In this document: positions 3,676 through 32,007 of the stretch, piece by piece
Position numbering within the stretch: position 1 is the first letter of the stretch
Layout: each line of letters opens with the position of its first letter
Made by a program: the position numbers and the translations under genes
Notes under the pieces: generated by a model
The model's database searches: none
What the model was told of the DNA's origin: nothing
The model's input: the letters and a program-made list of their open reading frames with translations, nothing else
Source of the DNA: a virus
Length of the DNA: 38,665 nucleotides
IMG/VR virus record: IMGVR_UViG_3300006802_000213
Coordinates: 1-38,665 of that record
Strand: one strand, 5' to 3'

Positions 3676-4869
3676 ATGACATACTCTGGTGCAACCACCT
3701 CTAACATCAAGCCTGGTCGATATTCCAACTCTGGCTTTGACCAAGCTGATGATATGGTGAAAATCAAGAGTGTTCAACGTAAGTTCCGAGATAGCTTTAG
3801 CTCGGCTTCATTGAATACAACTAATTGGTCTACCAGTATTGGTGCAGGCGGTGGTATTTCCCAGACGGGTGGCACCCTTGTGATGACCTCAGGTACTACT
3901 GCTAATGCAGTGACCTCTATAACTGGAAAGATTACCTTTACAATCCCGTTTCGTATTAGCATCGGCCTAACTCTTTCTCAGCGCATTGCTAACCAAGACT
4001 TTTACGTTGAACTTATTTCGGTAGACGATAATGGTGTGCCTGACGGTAAGCACAGCGCAGCCTGGCTATTTAATGGTACTACTGCTACAAACGCAATCTA
4101 CTCGGTACAGAATGGAGGCTTGAGTCCTCTGCTTTCTGGAGCTTCTACGGTAGTAACAACCGCAAGTGGTGGCCTGTACGAGATTGAACCATTTGCTGAT
4201 GAAGCTTGGTTCCACTCGTCCACAATGGATAGCAACTCAGGTCGAACGAACTCTTATCGCCGTCATCAACAGACACCTGATCCTAACGCTAAATATGTTT
4301 GCCGTCTGCGCTGGGTAAATGGTGCTACTCCTCCTGCTTCGACAACGACTGCGACTGTTCAGTTTATTGCGATTCAGGACTACGCTGAACTGACAGCAGA
4401 GATTACAGCTGGCCGTGGTCAGAACATTGCTGGGCAGGCTATTGGCGTGAACATAGTGACACAGCCGAGTCTGTCAGCTGGCACTGCCGCTGTGGGTGAT
4501 GTAGGTGTTCAATACCGGGCAAATGCAACAGGCGCTGCCTCTTCAGTCAGTGTCCTGAGCCCAGCTACTCCTGCAGCTGCAACAGTTAAAGCAACGGCTG
4601 GAAGGTTGGTTGCGTATTGTCTTCAGAATAGTTCGGCTGCAGTTAGATCGGTAAAGCTCTTCAACGTAGCAGCACCAACTCTGGGTACAACGGCTGCTGT
4701 ATTTGAGATTGATATCCCCGCCAATGGTATTGTTGCGCAAACAATTGGAGGTGGTTTGGGGTTCAGCACTGCCATTACCTATTCGGTGACTTCAGCTAAA
4801 GGTTTGACTGATAACACTGCAACTGGTCTTGCTCTAGCTGACGTATCTGGTTTCTTCGCATTCGCATAA
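3676..4869 (+). CDS. Putative virion appendage or decoration protein
   Basis: This 397-aa protein is rich in Ala, Thr, Ser and Gly, with predicted beta-strand character throughout and no catalytic motif that can be seen. About residues 30-230 resemble a carbohydrate-binding or jelly-roll-like beta domain (FRDSFSSASLNTTNWS...). The last 110 residues (VKLFNVAAPTLGTTAAVFEIDIPANG...) look like the terminal domain of head-fibre or decoration proteins seen in other phages. It lies between hli and psbA, near the capsid genes. A surface-exposed structural role is inferred from composition and place only. Confidence 0.65.
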   Translation: MTYSGATTSNIKPGRYSNSGFDQADDMVKIKSVQRKFRDSFSSASLNTTNWSTSIGAGGGISQTGGTLVMTSGTTANAVTSITGKITFTIPFRISIGLTLSQRIANQDFYVELISVDDNGVPDGKHSAAWLFNGTTATNAIYSVQNGGLSPLLSGASTVVTTASGGLYEIEPFADEAWFHSSTMDSNSGRTNSYRRHQQTPDPNAKYVCRLRWVNGATPPASTTTATVQFIAIQDYAELTAEITAGRGQNIAGQAIGVNIVTQPSLSAGTAAVGDVGVQYRANATGAASSVSVLSPATPAAATVKATAGRLVAYCLQNSSAAVRSVKLFNVAAPTLGTTAAVFEIDIPANGIVAQTIGGGLGFSTAITYSVTSAKGLTDNTATGLALADVSGFFAFA

Positions 4870-8634: not shown

Positions 8635-9294
8635 ATGCCAACAACCAATAACGCTCAGGCTGAGCTACAAGCTGTTAATGAAATTCTGGCGTCTATTGGT
8701 CAGGCGCCTGTAACCACCATCGAAGCACAAACTATCACCTATGAGGATGGTACTAGTGCAGAGATTCCAATCAACCCGGAAGTTGCAATTGTTTATGAGA
8801 CTCTGACACAAGTCTCTCGTGAGGTACAGGCAGAGGGATGGACATTCAATAAAGAAAATGAATATCCCCTAACACCAGATGTTAATGGCTACTTGTCTAT
8901 GACTGGTAGTATGCTGCAACTGGATTTGAGTGACACTGTTGCTAACAGTACATATGATACTGTGATTAGGAATGGTAGACTCTACGATAAACTAGAACAT
9001 ACTGATGTGTGGGATACTACTCAAACTTATGATGTTGATGTAGTTTGGTATTATGATTTCTCAGATCTCCCACAAGTATTCCGAGATTATGTCACAGCAA
9101 GAGCTGCTACACGTTGTGCTATCAGACTTGTTGGTGATGTAAACTTGACTCAAGCCTTGTCTTCATTTGAAACATGGCGTCGTGCTAACTGCCTTGAGTA
9201 CGAATGTAACCAAGGAGACTACACGATGTTTGGATTCAAACAAGGCGATGGCTTCTATAATAGCTATAAACCATTTAAGGCACTTGCACGATGA
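8635..9294 (+). CDS. Tail tubular protein A (T7 gp11-like)
   Basis: This 219-aa protein has the T7 gp11 family signature: AVNEILASIGQAPVTTIE near the N-terminus, the VSREVQAEGWTFNKENEYPL segment, and a C-terminal FRDYVTARAATR helix followed by an acidic/aromatic tail. gp11 forms the ring joining the portal to the nozzle. It overlaps the start of the gp12-like gene by 4 bases (ATGA), as T7-like phages often do. Confidence 0.93.
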   Translation: MPTTNNAQAELQAVNEILASIGQAPVTTIEAQTITYEDGTSAEIPINPEVAIVYETLTQVSREVQAEGWTFNKENEYPLTPDVNGYLSMTGSMLQLDLSDTVANSTYDTVIRNGRLYDKLEHTDVWDTTQTYDVDVVWYYDFSDLPQVFRDYVTARAATRCAIRLVGDVNLTQALSSFETWRRANCLEYECNQGDYTMFGFKQGDGFYNSYKPFKALAR

Positions 9295-11768
9295 CAGCTA
9301 TTTCCCAACGTATTCCTAACTTCCTTGGTGGTGTCTCTCAGCAAGCTGATGAGAAGATGCTGCTTGGTCAAGTTAAAGAAGCGCTTAACTGCTACCCTGA
9401 TATTACACTTGGTATGCTTAAGCGTCCTGGTGGTAAGTTCCTTGGGAAGCTATCTGGTCTAACTGCTAATACAGCTGACAATGCTGCATGGTTTAGTATC
9501 CTACAAAGTGCTACTGATAAGTATATTGCTAGTGTATCTAGTGCTGGTGTACTTAGTGTTTGGAATCTACTAACTGGCCAGACAGCTACCATTAACTACC
9601 CTACTGGTAAGCAAGCTTCTATTGTGTCGTATCTTACGGCAGCTGACTATAGGAGCATTAAAACGCTTACCATTAATGACTATACGTATATCCTGAATAC
9701 TGAGAAGACAGTAACTGCTAAGACTGCTCCTACATGGAATGCAAATAGGCAGGCTACACTTGTAGTCAACACTGTTGATCATGCTATTACATATTCAGTA
9801 ACGTTAAATAGTACAACCTTTACTTATACTTCTCCTTCATCTGGTTCTGGTAATCTTATCATCAGTACAGTGATGGCTGGCATATCAGCTGCTATTACTT
9901 CTGGTTTTGCTACTAAGACCATTATTGATAATACTATATACTTGACCTTTAACACAGATACTAATGTATCTGCATTTGGTGGTCCTGATGGTAAGTATTT
10001 CAGAGCTTTTCAAGATTCAGTAGAACTATTTTCTAAACTACCTGAGCAAGGAAAACATGATCAAGTAGTAAAGGTAGCTAATGCTTCTGCAGCTCTTGAT
10101 GACTTCTACCTTAAATTTGTAGCAGATAACGGAACAAGTGGTAAGGGTTATTGGGAAGAGACTGTAGCGCCTAATGTGAGTACAGGCTTTAATGAGAACA
10201 CAATGCCTGTTGCTCTTATTCGTACTAGCACTAGTCCTCTTACATTTAAAGCTACGTTCCTAGATGGCTCTACTCAGATTGATGGTTCAGCTACAGTTAC
10301 AGCTAATGCTGATACTTTAATTTGGGAGCCACGTGGTGTAGGAGATGATGACTCTAATAGTCAACCTACCTTTGTAGGTAATACCATTAGTGATATCTTC
10401 CTGTTTAACAATAGGCTTGGGTTTCTGACTGAAGATAATGTCTCCATGTCTCGGGCTGGTGACTACTATAACTTCTATCATAAGTCGGCTACTACATTGA
10501 CAGCTTCTGATCCTATTGATCTTAGCTGTGCTAGTATTAAACCTGCTATTGTACGTTCTGTTGTACCAGTTACACAGGGTTTGCTGTTGCTTAGTGATAG
10601 CCAACAGTTCCTGATGGAAGCTGAGAATGGAGCCTGGACTCCTTCTAATTGTACGATTAGTACCATTGCTAACTATGAGTATGATCGCTACCTGAAGCCA
10701 GTTGATCTTGGTTCTACTATTCTTTATATTAGTCGTAACCAAAGCTGGGCTAGGGCATTTGAGATCTTTATTCGTGGTCAACGGGAGACACCTACTGTAA
10801 CTGAAACTACGAAGGTTGTTCCTGAGTGGATCCCAAGCACTATCACAGACGCTGTAGGAAGCGCCCAGAACGGCCTGTGGGTGGGCTCTGGTAGGACTTC
10901 AAGGTATATGTACCTGCACCGCTTCTACGAGCAGGGAGACGAGCGTCCTATGGCCTCCTGGGTTAAGTGGTATCTGCCGTCTAATGTTATCCATGCTGCT
11001 ATTCAAAGTGATGTGCTGTATGTACTCACTAGTGGAACAGAAGGTTACACAACTACTCAGTATAAGCTAGTACAAGCTGCCACTACTGGTGGTCTTGTTA
11101 ACATCTTAGGTAATACAGTTGACCCAGCTCTTGATTCATGGTGTGAAGTAACGGATGCTGCTATTGTATCACCAGCACCTCCTACAGCACCTAGTTACAA
11201 TCAAGTTGCTAATACTACTAAGGTCTACCTACCTACTTATTTCAACACTGCTAGGACAATTAAGTTTGTTGTTGGTACGTTGAAGGCTGGTGGCTCTGGT
11301 ACACAATCTGGATATACAAATACTGCTACACTTCTATCTGATGGTGGTGGTACTTATTTTAATATCCCTGGTGATGTATCCGCTAACTACATCTATGTTG
11401 GCTATGAGTACAACATGGAAGTAACGCTTCCTAGGTACTACTATAGTATGGGTCAGCAAGGTGTGGACTTTACTGCTGTAACCACTACTGCTCGTATGCA
11501 GTTCTACACTGGACTTGGTGGTGATATTTACTTCTACCTAAAAGATCGTAGTAGGCCTGGTTGGTATAGTATTGGTGGTGCTCAAATTGCTGATTTCTAC
11601 ACAGCTAACACTGCTCCCTTCCGTGACTCATACGTTTATAAAGTTCCTGTTCATCAGAGGCCTGACAACTATACAATGAAAGTAACATCTAATACACCAT
11701 TCCCAGTTAGTCTTGTGTCTATGCAATGGGAAGGCAGGTACTCACCTGGATTCTACGGTAGGAGCTAA
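9291..11768 (+). CDS. Tail tubular protein B / nozzle (T7 gp12-like)
   Basis: This 825-aa protein compares with about 794 in T7. It opens ISQRIPNFLGGVSQQADE, the conserved gp12 N-terminus, and contains the beta-propeller-type segments VGDDDSNSQPTFVG, ISDIFLFNNRLGFLTEDNVSMSRAGDYYNF and MYLHRFYEQGDERPMASWVKW. It ends VSLVSMQWEGRYSPGFYGRS, also typical. The nozzle is the DNA-exit tube of the short tail and part of the fibre docking site. Codon use is AT-rich (gct, act, gtt), unlike the capsid operon. Confidence 0.95.
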   Translation: MTAISQRIPNFLGGVSQQADEKMLLGQVKEALNCYPDITLGMLKRPGGKFLGKLSGLTANTADNAAWFSILQSATDKYIASVSSAGVLSVWNLLTGQTATINYPTGKQASIVSYLTAADYRSIKTLTINDYTYILNTEKTVTAKTAPTWNANRQATLVVNTVDHAITYSVTLNSTTFTYTSPSSGSGNLIISTVMAGISAAITSGFATKTIIDNTIYLTFNTDTNVSAFGGPDGKYFRAFQDSVELFSKLPEQGKHDQVVKVANASAALDDFYLKFVADNGTSGKGYWEETVAPNVSTGFNENTMPVALIRTSTSPLTFKATFLDGSTQIDGSATVTANADTLIWEPRGVGDDDSNSQPTFVGNTISDIFLFNNRLGFLTEDNVSMSRAGDYYNFYHKSATTLTASDPIDLSCASIKPAIVRSVVPVTQGLLLLSDSQQFLMEAENGAWTPSNCTISTIANYEYDRYLKPVDLGSTILYISRNQSWARAFEIFIRGQRETPTVTETTKVVPEWIPSTITDAVGSAQNGLWVGSGRTSRYMYLHRFYEQGDERPMASWVKWYLPSNVIHAAIQSDVLYVLTSGTEGYTTTQYKLVQAATTGGLVNILGNTVDPALDSWCEVTDAAIVSPAPPTAPSYNQVANTTKVYLPTYFNTARTIKFVVGTLKAGGSGTQSGYTNTATLLSDGGGTYFNIPGDVSANYIYVGYEYNMEVTLPRYYYSMGQQGVDFTAVTTTARMQFYTGLGGDIYFYLKDRSRPGWYSIGGAQIADFYTANTAPFRDSYVYKVPVHQRPDNYTMKVTSNTPFPVSLVSMQWEGRYSPGFYGRS

Positions 11769-11771
11769 GAT

Positions 11772-12605
11772 ATGTGGAATGCAATTATTGCTGGCATTGG
11801 CGCTATTGCTGGCATTGCTGGTTCGGCTGCTAGTACCTCTGCACAAAATGCTGCTGTTGATAGGCAGTATGGGTATGATCTACAGTCTTGGAAATACAGT
11901 AAAGATCGTCTTAGAGCCGACCGTAAGCATAATGTTGAACAGTGGCGGTACAACGTACAGAATGAAGAGACATTAGGCGCATTTAAGGATGCCACTAATC
12001 TCCAAGACTGGCAGTATCAGCTCAAGATTCAACGTCAACAATATGCTCAAGACCTTAAGCAATATGCTAAGTCTGAGCAGATCTTTAACCAACAGCTTAC
12101 CTTTAACGAACTAGCTAAATCAGCTGCTGTTGAAGCTGAATACCGTAAACTGGAAGATGCTACTAATGAACTAGCACTCCAGAATCAAGACATTATTATT
12201 AAAGCTCTGCAAACACAAGGTACAACTGCAGTTAAGGGTCAAGTAGGTAGGAGTGCAGATAAGGCTGAACAAGCTGAGTTTGCATCATTTGGTCGTAACC
12301 AAGCTATCCTTGCTCAATCTTTGATCAGTGCTCAAGCTGATGCTCAAGGTGCTTTACGTAAGATTGCTAATGATAAGTTTGGTGCAGACCTTGCAGCAGA
12401 AGCTAATCGTATGTTGATGCCTGATCGTCCTATTGAAGCACCTAAGCCACTTACTACTCCGCGTGCTCAGTATCTTAAGCCCCGTAAACTTAAGAAAGCT
12501 GACTTTGGTCCTAAACCGATCAAAGGCGCTCAAGCTTCAATGGCAGGTAGTATTCTCGGTGCTGCTAGTAGCGGTCTTGGTAGTGTTGCTGGCTTTATTA
12601 AATAA
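11772..12605 (+). CDS. Internal virion protein (T7 gp14-like)
   Basis: This 277-aa protein has an N-terminal hydrophobic Gly/Ala stretch (AIIAGIGAIAGIAGSAAS, residues 4-21), a long helical Gln/Lys/Ala middle and a second Gly/Ala/Ser hydrophobic end. T7 gp14 has the same plan: it is ejected and sits in the outer membrane as part of the channel that leads DNA into the cell. It lies directly after gp12 and before the gp15-like protein, in T7 order. Assignment is from context and composition. Confidence 0.85.
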   Translation: MWNAIIAGIGAIAGIAGSAASTSAQNAAVDRQYGYDLQSWKYSKDRLRADRKHNVEQWRYNVQNEETLGAFKDATNLQDWQYQLKIQRQQYAQDLKQYAKSEQIFNQQLTFNELAKSAAVEAEYRKLEDATNELALQNQDIIIKALQTQGTTAVKGQVGRSADKAEQAEFASFGRNQAILAQSLISAQADAQGALRKIANDKFGADLAAEANRMLMPDRPIEAPKPLTTPRAQYLKPRKLKKADFGPKPIKGAQASMAGSILGAASSGLGSVAGFIK

Positions 12606-12620
12606 CCTAATAAAACTTAA

Positions 12621-15614
12621 ATGGATCAAGTAAGTTACAGAGGGTACGCCCGTAGTATAGGTTTCGATCCTATTAAAGCCCCGACAGAAGGTCTCAATCG
12701 GATGCAAGAGCGAGACAACCGTGTTATACGTAACATGGAAGATAATCGCAGGGCTATAAAGGAAGTAAGGGATGACTATGCCCGTGGTCTTGAGAGGAAA
12801 CTAAACATTGAATCTCAAGATAGGGATAGGAATTATCTCTATGAAAAATCACTTGATGAGAATAGACAGAAGTTTATTGATAAAAATGCTCAGACTCTAG
12901 TTCAAAATGAACTACAGCGTAGCAAGAATATCATTACTACGTTCGAGAGTCTGTCTAAATTTAGTACGACTCTTGCTGATACTGTCACTGAATATAAGAA
13001 GAAGCAGGATGAAGCGCAGCAAGCTGAAGGTCGCTATAAAGTGGCTACTGGTGAAATCTCTGCTCAGCAAATTAACGATGCCCAGAACCTAATTACTCTT
13101 GCTAAGACAGCTGGCAAGTCTAATGACATGATCACAGCTGAGCTACAAAAAAAGGGAGCTTCTCCTTATCTGATCTCAGCTTTGATGTCTAGTAATCCAG
13201 CTCGTAAGGCTGGTATTATTCAACAGCATGGTATTCAAGTACTGGCTACCTATGGCTCTTGGTCGCTTGATAAACTCAATGAACGTGGTCTGACAACTGC
13301 AGAGCAACGTGCTGCAGCAGCTCCTGAGTTGCTTAATGAGTTTGTCAAGTTGAATGGGCTTGAAGGTATCAACCCAATGCTCCTTATGGAGCCCCTGCAG
13401 CGAGCTAATCTTGCTTATACTGGACACGTCGAAGCCGCTAGGAAGTCTGACATTCGTAATAAGTCAGACGATATCCGTAGTCAAGAGATCAGGAATCTTG
13501 TTGCTACTAAGACAGGTGAGCAACTTATGTCTTCTCTCAATGCCCTTGCATTGACGTATGGGGAAGATGCTACAACGCCTCTTGGTCTTAAGGGTGCTAG
13601 GGATGAGTTGTATCGTGTCCTTAAGGACCCTACCCTGTTTAGTGATACTGATGTACAAACTATCCTATCTAATGCCCAGACTGATCAGGGTAGTATGAAG
13701 GATAGGTTCCCTGCTGAGTATGATGAGTTGATGGAGCAGCGTAGGGCTGAGTCTAATCAGGAAGCTGCTCAAATTGAAGCTCAACAAAACAGGGAAAATA
13801 AGGTAAAAGAAGAGAAGCTTCTTGAATGGGTTCAGGGGAACAATCCTAATGAGGATGAACTGAATACCATCATTAAGAAAGCAGAACTTGCTGGTATCCC
13901 AACTGATCGTCTGAAAGCTGCTCTTGCTTTTACCCCTCAACGTCAGAATCAAGACTTCTGGAATAAGTTGTTTAGGGATCAGGAGGAGGCTGGTACTCTA
14001 TCTGCAGAGGATGTTAATAAGCCTGGTGTGCCGATTGAAGTACGTGAGACATGGTTGTCTCGTGCTCAACGTTTGGACAATGCTAGGGCTAACTCTGGCA
14101 TCTCTCCAGAAGTTATTAAAGCTGAACTAACTGATGCTCTTAAGCAAAAACTGGTTGGTGATAGCACTACTAAGAATGCACACTATAGTATTCGTAGTGC
14201 ATCTGATTATGCTTTGCGTCTTTATAATCAGAAGTTCAAACAGTACTCTACAACTATGGAACCTTCTCAAGCTGCTGAGAAGGCTAGGTTGGATGTACTG
14301 ACAGCTATTGAGAAAGGCACTGGTAGATTCCTTCTTACTCCTTCTGGTAAAGCCACAGGTAGTCAAGCATTTTTTAATGCCTTTACTCCTGGTAATCACC
14401 CTGGTGCTCCTAAGAATATCAGTACTGTAACTGATGTATCAGCTACGATTGCTAGTGTACGTAGGGACAATAGTAAAATCAGTACAGAGGTTCTCACTAG
14501 CCCTGCTATCTTGAAGAGTATTGACAATCAAATTAAGAATGGTAAACCAGTTTCTGTTCCTGAACTGTATCGTCAACTAAGCAGGGCTATCCCTGGTATG
14601 TCCCCTACGGATATCCTTAATGCTCAGCTTAAGGCGGCTAAGCTTACTGGTCAAGTTAAGCCTGGTGCATTGGATACACTAGATCGTACTACGACTGACC
14701 CTTATCTCAAGAGCCTCCTTACTCGTAACCCAATTACTCAGGATAACATCAACACTGCTATTGTTGGTAGTGGTCATGCACCTGCTACTGTACGTACAGG
14801 TAATGCTGGTTATACTGATGTGCAAGCTCTTGGTAGTGCATCTGGCTTTAAGTTCCCTCAAGTGATGGCTGCTATGTGGGCATTGGAATCTGGCTGGGGT
14901 CGTTACACCTCAGGTAAGAACAATGTCTTTAATATCAAAGCAAGGCCTGGTCAAGGTACACAGAAGAATGGTTCCTATTGGAGGGACTATGCTTCACCGC
15001 TTGAGTCTGCTAAGGACTTCATGAATCTCATGACTGATCCACGCTATGCTCCTGGGCTTTCTAAAGCTAAGACGCCACGTCAAGCCATTGAGGCTATTGC
15101 TGCTGCTGGTTATGCTGGTGGTGAAGCAGCCTATCCTGGTAAGATCATTCGTGTGATGCAACAGATGGGTGTTAATGTTGATCAACCTTATACACCTGCA
15201 CCTCCTGCTCGTAACACTAATTACATGAGCACCACACTTGCTTACATTACTGGTAACATTGGTCCGACTTCCACTGGTCCACATCTTGATGTCAAACAGC
15301 AAGATAATCCGAATACTCCTCAAAATGAAAGGGCTCGTAACTTCCCAACTAACGTATTAGATAACTTTGTTGTTGTCGATGACCCGCAGCTTGGTAGAGT
15401 TCCATTGAGTCGTATTCCTATTACCAATACATTTGCTCAGCATGTTGCACGTGGCTCTCATGGTGTTGACTATGGTACTGCTAGTGGATCTAAAGTATTC
15501 CTGCGTAATGGAGCTAGGGTTGTCTCTAAACAATCAACACAGCATGGAGCCTTAGTTATTATTCAATTGCCGGATGGTCGGCGTTTCAGTTTCTTACACG
15601 GTAAATCAGTATGA
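12621..15614 (+). CDS. Internal core protein (T7 gp15-like) with GH73 and permuted M23-like domains
   Basis: This 997-aa protein compares with 747 in T7 gp15. About residues 1-720 are helical and coiled-coil-rich, as in gp15. The extra C-terminus carries two wall-related modules. Residues about 738-850 are a glucosaminidase (GH73-like) domain with AAMWALESGWGRYTSGKN, whose Glu is the predicted catalytic acid. Residues about 865-997 look like an M23/LytM peptidase in permuted order: the usual C-terminal TSTGPHLDV motif comes first and the usual N-terminal HGVDYGTASGSKVF and FLHG motifs come last. Two zinc-ligand positions look altered (HLD for HLH, S-H-G-V-D spacing). These modules probably open peptidoglycan during DNA entry. 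Confidence 0.9.
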   Translation: MDQVSYRGYARSIGFDPIKAPTEGLNRMQERDNRVIRNMEDNRRAIKEVRDDYARGLERKLNIESQDRDRNYLYEKSLDENRQKFIDKNAQTLVQNELQRSKNIITTFESLSKFSTTLADTVTEYKKKQDEAQQAEGRYKVATGEISAQQINDAQNLITLAKTAGKSNDMITAELQKKGASPYLISALMSSNPARKAGIIQQHGIQVLATYGSWSLDKLNERGLTTAEQRAAAAPELLNEFVKLNGLEGINPMLLMEPLQRANLAYTGHVEAARKSDIRNKSDDIRSQEIRNLVATKTGEQLMSSLNALALTYGEDATTPLGLKGARDELYRVLKDPTLFSDTDVQTILSNAQTDQGSMKDRFPAEYDELMEQRRAESNQEAAQIEAQQNRENKVKEEKLLEWVQGNNPNEDELNTIIKKAELAGIPTDRLKAALAFTPQRQNQDFWNKLFRDQEEAGTLSAEDVNKPGVPIEVRETWLSRAQRLDNARANSGISPEVIKAELTDALKQKLVGDSTTKNAHYSIRSASDYALRLYNQKFKQYSTTMEPSQAAEKARLDVLTAIEKGTGRFLLTPSGKATGSQAFFNAFTPGNHPGAPKNISTVTDVSATIASVRRDNSKISTEVLTSPAILKSIDNQIKNGKPVSVPELYRQLSRAIPGMSPTDILNAQLKAAKLTGQVKPGALDTLDRTTTDPYLKSLLTRNPITQDNINTAIVGSGHAPATVRTGNAGYTDVQALGSASGFKFPQVMAAMWALESGWGRYTSGKNNVFNIKARPGQGTQKNGSYWRDYASPLESAKDFMNLMTDPRYAPGLSKAKTPRQAIEAIAAAGYAGGEAAYPGKIIRVMQQMGVNVDQPYTPAPPARNTNYMSTTLAYITGNIGPTSTGPHLDVKQQDNPNTPQNERARNFPTNVLDNFVVVDDPQLGRVPLSRIPITNTFAQHVARGSHGVDYGTASGSKVFLRNGARVVSKQSTQHGALVIIQLPDGRRFSFLHGKSV

Positions 15615-18600
15615 CACAATCTCCCTACGCTGCAGATGATGAAGAACTGAGGCGTCTAGAGGAGGAATATAGGGCTCAGGAGCAGGCATTAGCAGCAGCA
15701 GCTCCTGCCTATGATCCTAAAACTAACGCTCCTCAAACAATGTTTAAGGAGGCTACACCAGCACAGAATAAAGAAGCTGGTAATGTGCAACCTGTTAAAT
15801 CACCTGCTCAGCAAGCCACTCAACAATTGACGGGTACTGGGGAGAACCAACCTAAGGAACCACTTAATCAAGGTAGTGGTTTTATGTATGGCAGTGGTGA
15901 CCCTAATGCTACTCTTGGAGAAGATATTGGTACTTATGCTCAACGTACCCTTGAAGGCATTGGCTCCATTGGTATGGGTGTCCTTGACTTTGGTATGGAT
16001 GCTATTGGTCGTATACCAGGTGCTGAATGGATTGATGATGCATGGGATGCTAAGACTAAATACAAGAACCCTGCTTTTCAAAAGGTAAGGGAAGTATCAT
16101 CTATCCTTGTACCTAGTATTGGTGTTGGTGCTGCATCACGTGTTGCTACTACTGGTATGGCAGGTGGCCCTATTGCACGTGGCCTTGCTGCTCTTGGTAT
16201 TAATGCTGCAGGGGATGTAGCTGTTAATGCCATTAGTGATCAATCAGAAGGTGATACGGTATCGACAATTGTAAAGGAAGCTGCACCTTGGTTGCCTGTT
16301 CCTGATGCACTTGTTGTTAAAGATACTGACTCTCCTGAAGTACGTCGGCATAAAAATCAGTATGAATCTGCTGGTCTAACTATTATTGGTGATGTCATCG
16401 GTTACTCTGCTGCTGCTGGCAAAGGAGTCATGGATTGGTTTAAACCTAAGGATAAGACAGCTCAGGAGTTTATGTCTTCTGAGGTTCTTGTTAATGGTGA
16501 CTCTGCTACTGCCGTTAAGGTATCTGAACTAGAGACCCAACGTGCTTCTCTTCAAGAAGAACTTGATCAGATCTCTTCTGTGGTTCCTGCTAATGAAGAA
16601 GAGCTTATTGCTCAAAGCATTCAGATTAGTAACCTTGATACACAAATCAAGGAACTTGACAAGCAAGCTACTAACCTTAACTCTCAGTACGTTAATACCG
16701 GTGCTTCAGATGTCACTGAGAGCCCCCTAGAATCGTTTGTAGAGCGTCAGCAGACTAGTCGGGATACTCAGATAGATGAGGTGGGTAAACAGCGCCTTAT
16801 GGACGATCCTGAAGGGGCTGGTGGAGTTGATCCTATGGTCACCTCTAAGATGTTCCCTGAAGGTGCTACTGCTGCTTTTAGTATCCCTCCTGGTAATCAT
16901 GCTAGGAATATGGCAGATACTACTGCTATTAAGATGGGTACGTCTACTGGTACTCCTGCTCCTATCTTATCTGAACGTGCATACTATGACCTGAGTAAAG
17001 GTAATAGCAAGTCACGTGATATCCTGGAAGGACTTGCTGAAGGTACTAGAGCTACTGGTAACTTTGATGCTATCGTTGACGGCTTTAGGTACACCAAAGC
17101 TCAGATGAGTGATGCAGCTTGGAAGATTTATAACGATATCATTGGTACTGATAAGGTATCTGATCTTAAGAATCTATTCCTTGATAACCGTGATGTAAAG
17201 CATCTCCTTGATGGTCGTAAAATTAAATACATCAATGATATCCAAGCTGAAGGTATTGGCTTTGCCATGCGTGACCTGACTGATAAGTATCTTGGTAGAG
17301 TTGTTACTGAAACATCAGCTCGTGCTATGGATACAGTAGGTAGGGAGATCGCTGATATTGCTGAAGGCTATAAGGCATTCCCTGAAAGTGCAGACTACAA
17401 TCGTGTTACTGAGATGATCGGTGATCGATTGGCTTTCCTTATGGAAGAGTATGCTCTCAATAAGTATATTGCTGGTTGGGCACTTAAGAACCAAGATCGT
17501 TGGAAGAAGTACCTAGAGGCTGCCCCTGATAAAGAAGCAGCTCTTAGACAGATTACTGAAGACTTTAACCTTAAAGCTCAAGAGAAGCACGCCCAGTCAC
17601 AAGGTTATCGGGATATGATCCGTAAGATTGCTACGGAACGTCCTGATGCTGCTCAACCATTGATTGATGCATTTGCATTGTCCAATGGTGATGTTGATAC
17701 ACTTGATAAGCTGATGAAGTGGGCTGCTAAGCAAGTCAGTCCTATGGGGCTTATCTATAGTGGTGATGGTGGTCTTAATGCTTTTGCTCAAGGTGTGTGG
17801 TCAGTACGTTATAACAACGTATTGTCTGGTATCTCTGCACTTAAAGCAATCACTGGTAACACTGTATCCCTTACACTCCGTACTAGTAATGCCTTTCTAG
17901 GTACTGGTATTGGTATGCTGATGGGTAAGAACACTCCTGAAGATCTCCGTAAAGCTACGTATGTCTATAGTTCCTTCTGGAATGTTAACAAACGTGCAAT
18001 GGGTGATGCTTGGAGTACCTTTAAGCGTACCTGGAATAATGGTCGTTGGGGTAATGATGCTAACATGGATCCTCGTGACCTTGCTCGTGAAGACCTGGTA
18101 ACTGACTATAACCCTAACCTATGGGATACGCTTGCTGATATGGAAGCTGTATGGGAAAAGGATGGTGATTGGGGTCGTCTCTTCCAATACCGTTCTGCTA
18201 GGTTCCTGTATGACCTTGGTAACTGGCGTTGGTTTAAGTACGGTACTAATGCAATGATTAGTGCTGACTCCTTTGTACAAACTACTGTTGCTTCACAACT
18301 TGCTCGTGCTAGGGCATGGGATGAGGTAGCTGGTATTGGTTACAAAGGACAAGAACTTGCTCAACAATTGGCTAAGGCTGAGAAGATTGCTTATGATGAA
18401 TCTTTTGATTCTCTCGGTAATCTAACTGATGCTGCTGTTAAGAACGCTACTGGTGAGATTGCACTTAACCTTGATGATCAAACTGCTGCATGGTTGACAC
18501 GAGGTATCAATAAACTGCCTATCCTCAAACCCTTCTTTATGTTCCCGAAGACTGGTGTTGGTGGTATTAAGACAGCTATGTCTTATACACCTATCGCTAC

Positions 18601-19831
18601 TCTGCCTGGAATGAATAAGTACTCTAAGGTGTTGTGGGCAGGTGATGATATTGATAAGATCAAAGAGGCATTGATGGAGCACAACATTGCTTATGATGCT
18701 GTTCCTAATGGTATGGCAATCTTCAAAGGTCTTGAAGCTGAGTATCGTGGTCGTGTTGCCTTTGGTGGCCTCCTTGCTACATCAATGTTTGGCTATGCCT
18801 TAGGTGGTAATATCCGTGGTAATGGTCCTGTTAATGCTGCTGAACGTAAGAAACTACGTGATAACTTTAACTGGCAACAAAAGACTATCAATGTTGCTGG
18901 TAAGTGGGTGAGCTATGCTGGTTATGAACCGCTTGATACTATCTTGACTCTTGTTGGCGACCTTGCTTACTACTCTCGTGATATCGGTTCTACCTTGACT
19001 GAGAGTTTTGTTGATAAACTGATGTGGACTCTTTCTGCTACGTTTGTTAATAAGTCTTGGGTTGCTGGTCTTGAACCTGTCGTTGCTGTTGCTAATGGTG
19101 ACGAGACAGCTATCACTCGATTCCTTGCTAATGAAGCACGATCTGCTATTCCTATGTCTGGTGCTCTTGGTGTTGTGTCTAACGCTATCACAAGCTCCCA
19201 GAAGGATATCTACAATGATCTCATTGGCTATGTGACCAATAAGGTTCCTGGCTTCTCTAGTAAGCTTCCTGAACAGATTGATATCTACACTGGTAACCCA
19301 CTTAACGATATCGATAATCCAGTACTGCGTGCATTAAATGCTATCAATCCTGTTAAGATCAGTGATGGCACTGAACCTTGGCGTCAGTGGTTGATTGATA
19401 GTGGATGGGATGGTATCCAGATGATCCGTAAGGATAGTACTGGTAACCACGAGTACACTCCTCAAGAGCGTGAGATTCTGTATAAGTATATCGGTGAACA
19501 ACAAATCTGGAAAGAGTTTGATAAACTCAGCAAGAACAAAAAGTATAACGATCAACTAGACCGTATTCGTGCAATGCGTGTTCAAGGTCGTCCATCTGAG
19601 GAGATCCAAGCAGCTCAAAGTGAAGTCTATTCAGTGATGAATGATATCATGTCTCAAGCCCAAAAGGCTGCTGAGATGCGTATGCAGCAAGAGAATGAAC
19701 CGATGTGGCGTTCCATTCAAGAATCCCTGACCAATAAGAACCTTATGAAGCAGGGTCGTATTGATGATGCTGCCAGGGCTGCTGATCGTCGTAAAGCAGA
19801 GATTGAGCGACTAACCCAAATGTACCGATAA
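15611..19831 (+). CDS. Internal core protein / ejectosome (T7 gp16-like)
   Basis: This 1406-aa protein compares with 1318 in T7 gp16. The N-terminus is Gln/Ala/Pro-rich, residues about 120-290 are Gly/Ala-rich and partly hydrophobic, and residues about 303-360 are a coiled coil (ELETQRASLQEELDQ...). The C-terminal half has long amphipathic helices. Family role: it is ejected and forms the periplasmic to inner-membrane part of the DNA translocation channel. T7 gp16 carries a lytic transglycosylase at its N-terminus. No such motif is seen here, and the wall-lytic activity appears to sit in the neighbouring gp15-like protein. It overlaps that gene by 4 bases. Confidence 0.9.
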   Translation: MTQSPYAADDEELRRLEEEYRAQEQALAAAAPAYDPKTNAPQTMFKEATPAQNKEAGNVQPVKSPAQQATQQLTGTGENQPKEPLNQGSGFMYGSGDPNATLGEDIGTYAQRTLEGIGSIGMGVLDFGMDAIGRIPGAEWIDDAWDAKTKYKNPAFQKVREVSSILVPSIGVGAASRVATTGMAGGPIARGLAALGINAAGDVAVNAISDQSEGDTVSTIVKEAAPWLPVPDALVVKDTDSPEVRRHKNQYESAGLTIIGDVIGYSAAAGKGVMDWFKPKDKTAQEFMSSEVLVNGDSATAVKVSELETQRASLQEELDQISSVVPANEEELIAQSIQISNLDTQIKELDKQATNLNSQYVNTGASDVTESPLESFVERQQTSRDTQIDEVGKQRLMDDPEGAGGVDPMVTSKMFPEGATAAFSIPPGNHARNMADTTAIKMGTSTGTPAPILSERAYYDLSKGNSKSRDILEGLAEGTRATGNFDAIVDGFRYTKAQMSDAAWKIYNDIIGTDKVSDLKNLFLDNRDVKHLLDGRKIKYINDIQAEGIGFAMRDLTDKYLGRVVTETSARAMDTVGREIADIAEGYKAFPESADYNRVTEMIGDRLAFLMEEYALNKYIAGWALKNQDRWKKYLEAAPDKEAALRQITEDFNLKAQEKHAQSQGYRDMIRKIATERPDAAQPLIDAFALSNGDVDTLDKLMKWAAKQVSPMGLIYSGDGGLNAFAQGVWSVRYNNVLSGISALKAITGNTVSLTLRTSNAFLGTGIGMLMGKNTPEDLRKATYVYSSFWNVNKRAMGDAWSTFKRTWNNGRWGNDANMDPRDLAREDLVTDYNPNLWDTLADMEAVWEKDGDWGRLFQYRSARFLYDLGNWRWFKYGTNAMISADSFVQTTVASQLARARAWDEVAGIGYKGQELAQQLAKAEKIAYDESFDSLGNLTDAAVKNATGEIALNLDDQTAAWLTRGINKLPILKPFFMFPKTGVGGIKTAMSYTPIATLPGMNKYSKVLWAGDDIDKIKEALMEHNIAYDAVPNGMAIFKGLEAEYRGRVAFGGLLATSMFGYALGGNIRGNGPVNAAERKKLRDNFNWQQKTINVAGKWVSYAGYEPLDTILTLVGDLAYYSRDIGSTLTESFVDKLMWTLSATFVNKSWVAGLEPVVAVANGDETAITRFLANEARSAIPMSGALGVVSNAITSSQKDIYNDLIGYVTNKVPGFSSKLPEQIDIYTGNPLNDIDNPVLRALNAINPVKISDGTEPWRQWLIDSGWDGIQMIRKDSTGNHEYTPQEREILYKYIGEQQIWKEFDKLSKNKKYNDQLDRIRAMRVQGRPSEEIQAAQSEVYSVMNDIMSQAQKAAEMRMQQENEPMWRSIQESLTNKNLMKQGRIDDAARAADRRKAEIERLTQMYR

Positions 19832-30722: not shown

Positions 30723-30782
30723 CAACAGACAATGCTGCTTGTTAACAATAGCTGAGGGGCTAGTTATATATCTATAGTCACG

Positions 30783-30809
30783 CCTTATTGAGAATGAATT
30801 GCAATAAGG
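30783..30809. repeat. 8-bp perfect hairpin
   Basis: CCTTATTG (30783-30790) pairs with CAATAAGG (30802-30809) around an 11-base loop, within the non-coding region. Confidence 0.6.
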
Positions 30810-30828
30810 AGTAGGTGATAGTAATCGG

Positions 30829-30868
30829 TATTGTACGTATTGTACGGTGACAAGGTGTGGTATATATC
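30829..30868 (+). promoter_or_regulatory. Tandem TATTGTACG repeat and possible -10
   Basis: TATTGTACG occurs twice in direct succession (30829-30837, 30838-30846). The second copy supplies TTGTAC at 30840, 17 bases before TATATC (30863-30868), a plausible sigma-70 arrangement. The tandem repeat could also be an operator. Confidence 0.38.
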
Positions 30869-30929
30869 AATTTATCTGTACAACGACCCTGTTAACGCAG
30901 GTCACTGCAGCTATAACGCTATTAGACAC

Positions 30930-30958
30930 GCCTAGAAGCGGCTATAAGGCCCTTCTAA
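30930..30958. repeat. Imperfect hairpin with CCTAGAAG/CTTCTAA ends
   Basis: TAGAAG pairs with CTTCTA, with an inner GGC/GCC, giving a short stem-loop. The CCTAGAAG end is also found in the hairpin upstream of terminase (27536-27568), suggesting a family of related control hairpins. Confidence 0.45.
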
Positions 30959-31018
30959 CCGTTGTTAGGTATACTGACACCTAGAGCGCAGTAGAGGGGC
31001 ATTACAGAGCCTTGTGTG

Positions 31019-31054
31019 AAATGAAGCGATTAGGGCATGTTAAACGCTTCATTT
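31019..31054. repeat. 10-bp perfect hairpin
   Basis: AAATGAAGCG (31019-31028) pairs exactly with CGCTTCATTT (31045-31054) around a 16-base loop. A T-run (TTTTT) comes 16 bases later. It could be a terminator, an RNase III site or a terminase recognition structure. Confidence 0.6.
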
Positions 31055-31391
31055 GCGTGTATAGCCTTTTTGCAGTAGTTCGCCTATGACGCGACCTGTA
31101 GCACTATTTCCATCCACACGACTTGCTCACTACGTTCACACTCATCGCCAGCATCAGACAGCAGCCCTACGGTTTGGATCGATAAGGAACGCTGATAGGG
31201 TCAGATAGGCGTTTGGTATCAGGGCGAACTACGGGGAGTCTGGATACCTGGTATATTAGGTACATCGGTGGGGGACAAGCCTGCTGTGTTACCTTGACAA
31301 CTAAATAGTGTGGTTCGTCATAAGACGGAACTAGCGGTGCGAGCGATCCCGCGAGTAACTATAGGTTGCAACTCAACCTGGTTACACGAAC

Positions 31392-31398
31392 CCGTATC
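31392..31398 (+). promoter_or_regulatory. CCGTATC motif upstream of the early genes
   Basis: GAACCCGTATCTAATC lies about 91 bases before the first early gene, next to the inverted-repeat copy at 31405. It matches the element at 29584 upstream of the thyX unit. Confidence 0.35.
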
Positions 31399-31404
31399 TA
31401 ATCA

Positions 31405-31424
31405 TTAGTGCGTGCTAACGCACA
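31405..31424. repeat. 20-bp inverted-repeat copy B (palindromic)
   Basis: TTAGTGCGTGCTAACGCACA is the exact reverse complement of 30454-30473 and itself folds as a 6-bp hairpin. TTAGTGC is repeated immediately afterwards. Confidence 0.8.
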
Positions 31425-31488
31425 TTAGTGCAGAGCCACATGCACTATAAACATTAGATCATGGCGCCTGTTCCATTGCTATTAGTTT

Positions 31489-31638
31489 ATGTCCATTACT
31501 ATTGATAAGAAGGTTGCTACTGGTCTTCTTAGTAAGGCTAGTACAGGTAATGATCTCTTGAGTGTACTTGAGATGATCGTTAGTAGTTTCACTAAGTCTA
31601 CTGTTGTTGAGCCTACTCTTGAGGAGATTGAGTTCTGA
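31489..31638 (+). CDS. Early small protein (49 aa)
   Basis: MSITIDKKVATGLLSKAS... is the first gene of the early block. Its stop overlaps the next start (TGATG). It is acidic at the C-terminus (EPTLEEIEF) and helical in prediction. The function is unknown, but early position suggests host takeover or defence-evasion roles. Confidence 0.6.
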   Translation: MSITIDKKVATGLLSKASTGNDLLSVLEMIVSSFTKSTVVEPTLEEIEF

Positions 31639-31856
31639 TGTCTACCTATACATTTGACCAGTTGCGTGATGCTGTGCAGGAATGCACCAGTTATGATCTT
31701 GTTCAACGGTTTAGTGATGATGAGGATGAGTATGCGTTGATTGATCCTTATGGTGATCAAGATGGTGATCCATTCTATGATCTTAATGATGTAGAGGATT
31801 TCATCCGCAATAACGATCAAGTTGATCAGTATTTGTACGAGCTTGTCAATCAATGA
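31638..31856 (+). CDS. Early acidic protein (72 aa)
   Basis: This 72-aa protein is strongly acidic: Asp, Glu, Gln and Asn dominate (FSDDEDEYALIDPYGDQDGD...). It overlaps both neighbours (1 and 4 bases). Such acidity is common in small DNA-mimic or host-protein-binding early proteins, but no family can be named. Confidence 0.68.
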   Translation: MSTYTFDQLRDAVQECTSYDLVQRFSDDEDEYALIDPYGDQDGDPFYDLNDVEDFIRNNDQVDQYLYELVNQ

Positions 31857-32005
31857 CATACTACATTGCCAAGATGTCTGATGAAGGTAACTGGGAGTAT
31901 TTAGATAATGCACCTAGTTATTCTGATGCAGAGATGATGCTTGATGCGTACTGTGATATGTATCCTCAAGCTTACATTGACGTAATTCACACTCACGAGG
32001 ACTGA
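31853..32005 (+). CDS. Early acidic protein (50 aa)
   Basis: MTYYIAKMSDEGNWEYLDNAP... starts within the last codons of the previous gene (CAATGACA) and ends 2 bases before the next ATG. It is rich in Asp, Tyr and Met (AEMMLDAYCDMYPQAYIDV). It is too short for a homology search without tools, but the overlaps make it a convincing gene. The function is unknown. Confidence 0.6.
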   Translation: MTYYIAKMSDEGNWEYLDNAPSYSDAEMMLDAYCDMYPQAYIDVIHTHED

Positions 32006-32007
32006 TC

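Follow-up and report, generated by a model that had tools for sequence, protein, structure and literature searches.

A putative circularly permuted M23/LytM-type domain at the C-terminus of a gp15-like cyanophage ejection protein

Canonical M23 peptidases carry their HxGxD-to-YxH half first and the GPHLHFEV strand last, which raises the question of what has become of such a domain when the same motifs appear in the opposite order. The case considered here is the gp15-like internal virion (ejection) protein encoded in a window of 38,665 nucleotides, the whole stretch of DNA that was analysed (positions 1 to 38,665 of IMG/VR virus record IMGVR_UViG_3300006802_000213). The window is a T7-like cyanophage whose host group is cyanobacteria, and phage RNA polymerase, head, tail and internal virion genes are all present in it. 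As judged from sequence profiles, the C-terminal domain of gp15, comprising its last ~125 residues, is circularly permuted relative to M23/LytM. Downstream of a glucosaminidase domain the protein reads, in sequence, TLAYITGNIGPTSTGPHLDVK, a linker and ITNTFAQHVARGSHGVDYGTASGSKVF...RFSFLHGKSV-stop, with the following layout:

12621..15614, + strand: gp15-like internal virion (ejection) protein, 997 amino acids; open reading frame (ORF), PHROG 24152 (unknown function)
14856..15167, + strand: glucosaminidase domain PF01832, residues 746-849 (Pfam, E=4.2e-16)
15234..15296, + strand: putative N-terminal piece of the permuted M23 domain, equivalent to the last M23 strands, TLAYITGNIGPTSTGPHLDVK, residues 872-892 (profile comparison)
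15297..15419, + strand: putative linker between the old C- and N-termini, with two extra strands at 917-921 and 925-928 (AlphaFold2 secondary structure)
15420..15611, + strand: putative C-terminal piece of the permuted M23 domain, equivalent to the first half of M23, ITNTFAQHVARGSHGVDYG...FLHGKSV, residues 934-997 (profile comparison)

The initial annotation had placed TSTGPHLDV ahead of SHGVDYGTASGSKVF and FLHG and had taken the swapped order for a circular permutation. The order is as described, with TSTGPHLDV at residues 883-891 (about eight away from the 'about 875' originally given), SHGVDYGTASGSKVF from residue 946 and FLHG at 991-994, and its interpretation is upheld by profile rotation with shuffled controls, by M23 chains in the PDB that match in swapped pieces, and by same-order relatives with intact motifs. 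When residues 856-997 are searched alone, Pfam M23 is found at E=0.012 for the HGVD...FLHG half (profile positions 3-53 of 96); with the halves swapped in silico, two versions give E=0.0011 and E=0.0019 over profile positions 4-84 and 4-86 of 96. At the profile level, 40 aligned cyanophage rows were compared with 18 canonical-order M23 rows by hhalign, and the score was 54.4 in natural order (template 2-69) versus 65.3 after rotation (template 2-102), the probability of 97.2 for the rotated profile supporting homology to M23. All cut-points tested between residues 37 and 73 give ~65, and cuts within the motifs score lower. Shuffled controls, in which alignment columns 1-60 were shuffled before rotation, gave 53.9 +/- 0.6 with a maximum of 58.5, and none of the 200 reached 65.3.

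Searched against the PDB, the family profile has as its top match the M23 peptidase 5kqb (E 2.5e-4), in swapped pieces, the later query segment (75-122; 17.1 bits) falling on the earlier part of the chain (26-74) and the early segment (5-26; 5.5 bits) on its later part (96-117). The matches also include ShyA, LytM, lysostaphin and zoocin A; the short second piece of these M23 matches is weak alone (4-6 bits), and other, non-M23 chains appear in the same list with weaker E (0.13 and above). A two-row profile of the Acinetobacter and Moraxella phage relatives introduced below matches 3slu/6muk at about 1e-7, likewise in swapped pieces. The list further contains 9k2v, a solved structure named 'Internal protein', of which chain E residues 647-716 match the family profile over the first-half M23 region; a domain resembling M23, in another internal protein of virions, may therefore already have coordinates.

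With a hidden Markov model (HMM) of canonical-order M23, the gp15 domain and six relatives are found in swapped-order pieces, and two other loci, L278 and L282, come out as canonical in the same test. Among 122 distinct HMM-positive stretches, 51 were permuted, 32 canonical and 39 first-half only or other; most of the 30 listed from these 39 are cyanophage family members whose short first piece falls under the threshold. When single sequences are rotated, more than 3 bits are gained in 6 of 15 (the window, S-CBP1, L076, Acinetobacter, Moraxella and S-TIM54). The permuted order is also kept inside long tape-measure proteins and in S-TIM54, and is therefore no truncation artefact.

Whether the rearranged domain retains a working metal site depends on the residues that M23 enzymes use. 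According to the portion of PMC9662197 consulted, the zinc ligands of M23 are H(x)nD together with the second His of HxH, and the first His of HxH and a His ~30 residues before HxH act on water. The corresponding positions in gp15 are as follows:

15282..15284, + strand: His888, first His of the HxH-equivalent motif, presumably catalytic; invariant in 37 of 37 sequences
15288..15290, + strand: Asp890, in the place of the HxH zinc-ligand His; Asp here, Asp or His in the permuted relatives seen
15441..15443, + strand: His941, proposed replacement zinc ligand of H(x)8D; missing only where the canonical HxGxD His is present
15468..15470, + strand: Asp950, Asp of HxGxD, proposed zinc ligand; invariant in 37 of 37 sequences
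15597..15599, + strand: His993, putative second catalytic His, equivalent to LytM His260; invariant in 37 of 37 sequences

Among 37 sequences of <90% identity, six positions are invariant in well-filled columns (H888, D890, G948, D950, G986 and H993), in an alignment whose His941 column also received the canonical His of Moraxellaceae-type sequences. Ligands were counted in 110 permuted domains, many of them close relatives (116 distinct strings minus 2 truncated, 3 canonical-order and S-TIM54). The first-motif His lies nine residues before the Asp (D-9, His941-type) in 75 of the 110 and four before it (D-4, canonical) in the other 35, no domain having both or neither. These 35 comprise 32 of Moraxellaceae type and three from cyanophages (L084, L085 and L088), in which Met is aligned at the His941 position. 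Set against the defining features of M23, gp15 has an H(x)nD motif in the form H941(x)8D950, with His941 as a putative ligand, and an additional catalytic His in His993; HxH is replaced by HxD in 110 of 110 of the permuted domains counted above, and the order of H(x)nD, catalytic His and HxH is not preserved in the permuted gp15 domain. Because HxH and the motif order depart from the family pattern, the domain is filed as a permuted, ligand-changed variant related to M23. The annotators had been right that the second His of HLH is Asp (HLD at 888-890); the His of 'HGVD' is not the displaced HxGxD His, the homologous position being Ser946. That His, His947, was rejected as a metal ligand because P60 has Phe in its place and other relatives have Phe or Tyr.

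Across the permuted domains seen, the third-ligand position holds Asp or His only. In nine Acinetobacter-family genomes with permuted domains, found after the count of 110, it belongs to HxH in four (L292, L293, L297 and L298) and to HxD in five (G001, L289-L291 and L294), and three Asp/His changes are needed on a tree of 30 permuted rows, S-TIM54 included, which was built with the trait columns and has long branches for S-TIM54, L294 and L297. A working site is favoured because this position alternates between two metal-binding residues, with no third residue seen. The metal site of the gp15 domain looks remodelled, not dead: of the two outcomes allowed for at the outset, the invariant catalytic positions, the either/or His and the Asp/His swap at the third ligand lean towards the first.

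A separate observation concerns L074:1589-5899, a canonical-order M23 domain in a long tape-measure-like protein, which has Ser at the HxGxD His, His at D-9 and an intact HLH; its displaced-His pattern matches that of the gp15 domain.

Relatives of the domain were found in cyanophage-type contigs in overlapping sets of loci: a first scan gave 70 loci, one of them (L074) in canonical order, and later scans gave 98 relatives (best 80 of 98) and 103 (best 80 of 103). Annotated relatives occur in the Synechococcus phages DSL-LC07 (tape measure), S-CBP1 (hypothetical/internal core) and P60 (internal virion or virion structural protein). In 160 of 160 ORF segments, representing 73 distinct cyanophage strings, no more than two residues separate the end of the domain match from the stop or the end of the contig. 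A glycan-cutting domain is named by Pfam directly upstream in 8 of 10 diverse cyanophage relatives, the partners in the ten C-terminal regions being glucosaminidase in five, SLT in two and Phage_lysozyme2 in one (that of P60, just short of the gathering score), with none named in two. The P60 domain as query gave no plasmid match, and the cyanophage-type profile gave no confirmed relative in bacterial genome contigs. In one contig (L166:3900-4465), an ORF with a tail-lysozyme-like region stops at 4100 and the permuted domain resumes in another frame, for which a sequencing error, a split gene or a frameshift would account.

Outside the cyanopodoviruses, tblastn matched 24 Acinetobacter and 6 Moraxella phage records; the one Acinetobacter and one Moraxella record examined are both permuted and lie in tape-measure/tail proteins. 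Relatives of this type number 361 in viral contigs (best 80 of 361), and the Acinetobacter/Moraxella profile gave 18 matches in bacterial genomes, of which 7 Acinetobacter loci cover the whole query. Within the family of the Acinetobacter genome G001, 11 of 199 genomes matched, 2 of them in canonical order, leaving 9 permuted; a further match there (L299) covers the first half only, and in a class sample of 369 genomes G001 itself was the sole match at E<=1e-10. When the divergent cyanophage domain of L166 was searched against 50,697 phage records, the only non-cyanophage match up to E 5 was to a tail protein from a Moraxella phage (E 1, 32% identity, 94% coverage), which is weak support for a shared descent of the cyanophage and Moraxella-type permuted domains. 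In Moraxella phages Mcat18 and Mcat21 (H106 and H107), the match is split in two pieces over two 'tail protein' features; the gene there may therefore be broken or misannotated.

A different relative occurs in the cyanomyovirus S-TIM54 (L170:2974-3380), in which a permuted M23 domain has fully canonical HNGID and HAH motifs, exceeds the Pfam M23 cut-off (41.9 vs 28.7 bits, in two stretches) and adjoins a C-terminal Phage_lysozyme2 domain. L278 and L282, found alongside it, share with it the motif RPNHNGID and keep canonical order, so that the S-TIM54 permutation was probably separate and later. Canonical-order look-alikes were set aside: ACG-2014f, Syn1, S-PM2, Sf-CH3, Vibrio Yong MS31, Mycobacterium Hilltopfarm lysin A and Mastigocladus CHP58, the bacterial loci L186 and L188-L196 (with L187 classed as canonical in two pieces), L278, L282, L284, L295 and L296, and H51, H58 and H77.

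The structure predicted by AlphaFold2 with 48 sequences is one confident, mostly beta domain (mean predicted local distance difference test score, pLDDT, 91.2; predicted template modelling score, pTM, 0.85). In BFVD, four matches fall under E 1e-3, namely P60, a tape-measure fragment, one unnamed protein and a virion protein of cyanophage S-TIM5 (E 8e-4, TMq 0.68, root-mean-square deviation 6.4).

Taken as a whole, the gp15 C-terminal domain is probably a circularly permuted M23/LytM-type fold, most likely a zinc-binding peptidoglycan endopeptidase working with the glucosaminidase at ejection, and it is likened in its presumed working to an M23 metallopeptidase. Several results weigh against this. 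M23 is absent from the Pfam results for full-length gp15 at E<=10 and from those for the P60 domain, and the match of the isolated gp15 domain stays under the gathering score (16.3 vs 28.7 bits). The 18 canonical rows of the hhalign comparison are not an independent sample, because they were retrieved by searches with family members; the N-terminal piece of single cyanophage sequences scores 0.8-2.6 bits with the canonical-order HMM, and rotation brings a smaller gain in the other 9 of the 15 single sequences. For the Acinetobacter tape-measure protein, the Pfam scan gives no domain that cuts glycan. Foldseek against the PDB shows no M23 in the best 50 of 136 matches, all at E>1, and VIA against the PDB lists no M23 chain; LecB-type lectins head the VIA rows (Z 4.4), which VIA's own notes call uninformative. 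Both tools keep chain order, so a permuted fold could explain the absence, although it is no proof. These searches are what would support an unrelated beta domain, for example lectin-like, whose short motifs resemble M23 by chance, an explanation we regard as very improbable given that no shuffle reached the rotated profile score, that the PDB profile search is led by an M23 chain matched in swapped pieces, and that relatives of the same order with full canonical motifs exist. It is just as improbable that no permutation within the chain occurred and that M23 sites form between adjacent gp15 subunits, each supplying one of the two pieces. T7 gp15 is oligomeric, according to the part of PMC8954989 consulted, and neighbours would thus be at hand; against this, a single chain is modelled confidently (pLDDT 91, pTM 0.85), and the identical order recurs in tape-measure proteins and S-TIM54.

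The alternative that deserves more weight, although we consider it unlikely, accepts the permuted M23 fold and makes it degenerate and catalytically dead, kept as a peptidoglycan-binding or regulatory module in the manner of EnvC/NlpD that helps the adjacent glucosaminidase. The ligand changes themselves speak for it, and thus also against an active enzyme: the zinc-ligand His that defines HxH has become Asp, turning HxH into HxD, and Ser946 occupies the position of the canonical HxGxD His. Degenerate M23 folds with new roles are, moreover, known (PMC9662197, in the portion consulted). Decay would be expected to bring other residues into the third-ligand position, where only Asp or His is found, and the D-9 His is lost only where a D-4 His is present; the active-site positions are also among the six invariant ones of the domain. 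For these reasons an active permuted enzyme is preferred to a dead one.

From this pattern we infer a metal, its ligands, catalysis, a substrate and a time of action for the gp15 domain. The break in the chain would lie in the loop that follows the strand with the catalytic His at its end (FLH) and precedes the strand running into GPHLxV, with the old termini joined through the linker. One zinc or similar ion would be held by His941 and Asp950, as a long H(x)8D, and by Asp890, which stands in for the zinc-ligand His of HxH; water activation would fall to His888 and His993. Cyanobacterial peptidoglycan has direct cross-links of the Gram-negative type, for which reason D,D-endopeptidase is the likeliest specificity. 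During genome ejection the glucosaminidase would cut glycan strands and the permuted domain the stem-peptide cross-links, both at the channel site, so as to open the wall at the place where gp14/gp15/gp16-type proteins, once ejected, assemble the DNA channel. A wider proposal, on which our judgement is evenly balanced, is that these domains would form an active, naturally permuted family of M23-type metallopeptidases that arose at least twice in phages, with the site rebuilt from His-Asp-His to His-Asp-Asp and the first His moved five residues upstream.

The genes around gp15 place it in an internal-virion cassette:

9291-11768: tail gene, phrog_457
11772-12605: phrog_20153 (unknown function), the gene directly before gp15
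15611..19831, + strand: gp16-like internal virion protein, 1406 amino acids (phrog_6651, E=2e-303)

The gp15 stop at 15612-15614 overlaps the ATG of the next gene at 15611, and no Pfam domain was found in this gp16-like neighbour (15611-19831) at E<=0.05. In DSL-LC07 the gene preceding the gp15 relative is annotated gp14, and gp15 sits between gp14-like and gp16-like internal virion genes, as in T7-like phages. Elsewhere in the window, the ~1.3 kb at 30723-32007 hold as ORFs of >=60 amino acids just one of 143 amino acids on the minus strand and one of 72 on the plus strand, and are possibly a regulatory region; a tRNA scan of the window found no tRNA.

Few wall hydrolases have been studied as well as the M23 enzymes, which the literature examined describes with H(x)nD before HxH. 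The permuted branch is filed under 'internal virion' or 'tape measure' because most of its members lie below the Pfam cut-off and Foldseek against the PDB does not link them to M23. Recognition of this branch would give cyanophage ejection proteins a likely second wall-cutting activity. The family is also a natural test of how metal sites move during evolution, and, if the proposal is true, both ligand relocation and permutation could be traced step by step in living sequences. In the open-access literature searched, no description of a permuted M23 was found: the portions consulted of PMC9662197, PMC6403190, PMC7824862 and PMC12419801 contain none, and the words 'permut' and 'circular' are absent from the main text consulted of the first. 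'M23' is absent from the main text of PMC4646655, PMC8557907 and PMC8790148, and neither 'gp15' nor 'peptidoglycan' occurs in the part of PMC10575957 consulted.

Four known systems offer the closest comparisons. With M23 of the LytM/lysostaphin type (PF01551; 5kqb, 4zyb), the gp15 domain shares whole-domain profile homology after rotation, the Asp of HxnD, the first His of HxH, the catalytic His and a virion-associated, wall-cutting context; it differs in its swapped motif order, its Asp as third ligand and a first-motif His that sits at D-9 instead of D-4. The family motifs given in the consulted portion of PMC9662197 are H(x)nD and HxH, the former with a variable length, H(x)12D in LasA and H(x)7D in phi29 gp13; in both, as in the H(x)8D of gp15, more residues separate the first-motif His from the Asp than in LytM. 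The T7 proteins gp14, gp15 and gp16 are ejected and assemble into a channel through the envelope, gp16 contributing a transglycosylase, and the domain that hydrolyses the wall can be carried by the gp15 homologue instead (PMC8954989, in the part consulted). The window likewise has a gp15-sized protein directly before a gp16-like internal virion protein, and differs in carrying a glucosaminidase and a permuted M23-like domain on gp15 instead of a gp16 transglycosylase. Circularly permuted NlpC/P60 proteins (YaeF/G6R, LRAT-like), whose permutation swapped the catalytic motifs (PMC6403190, in the part consulted), provide another wall-peptidase superfamily with permuted catalytic motifs, although these are cysteine-dependent enzymes of a superfamily different from M23.

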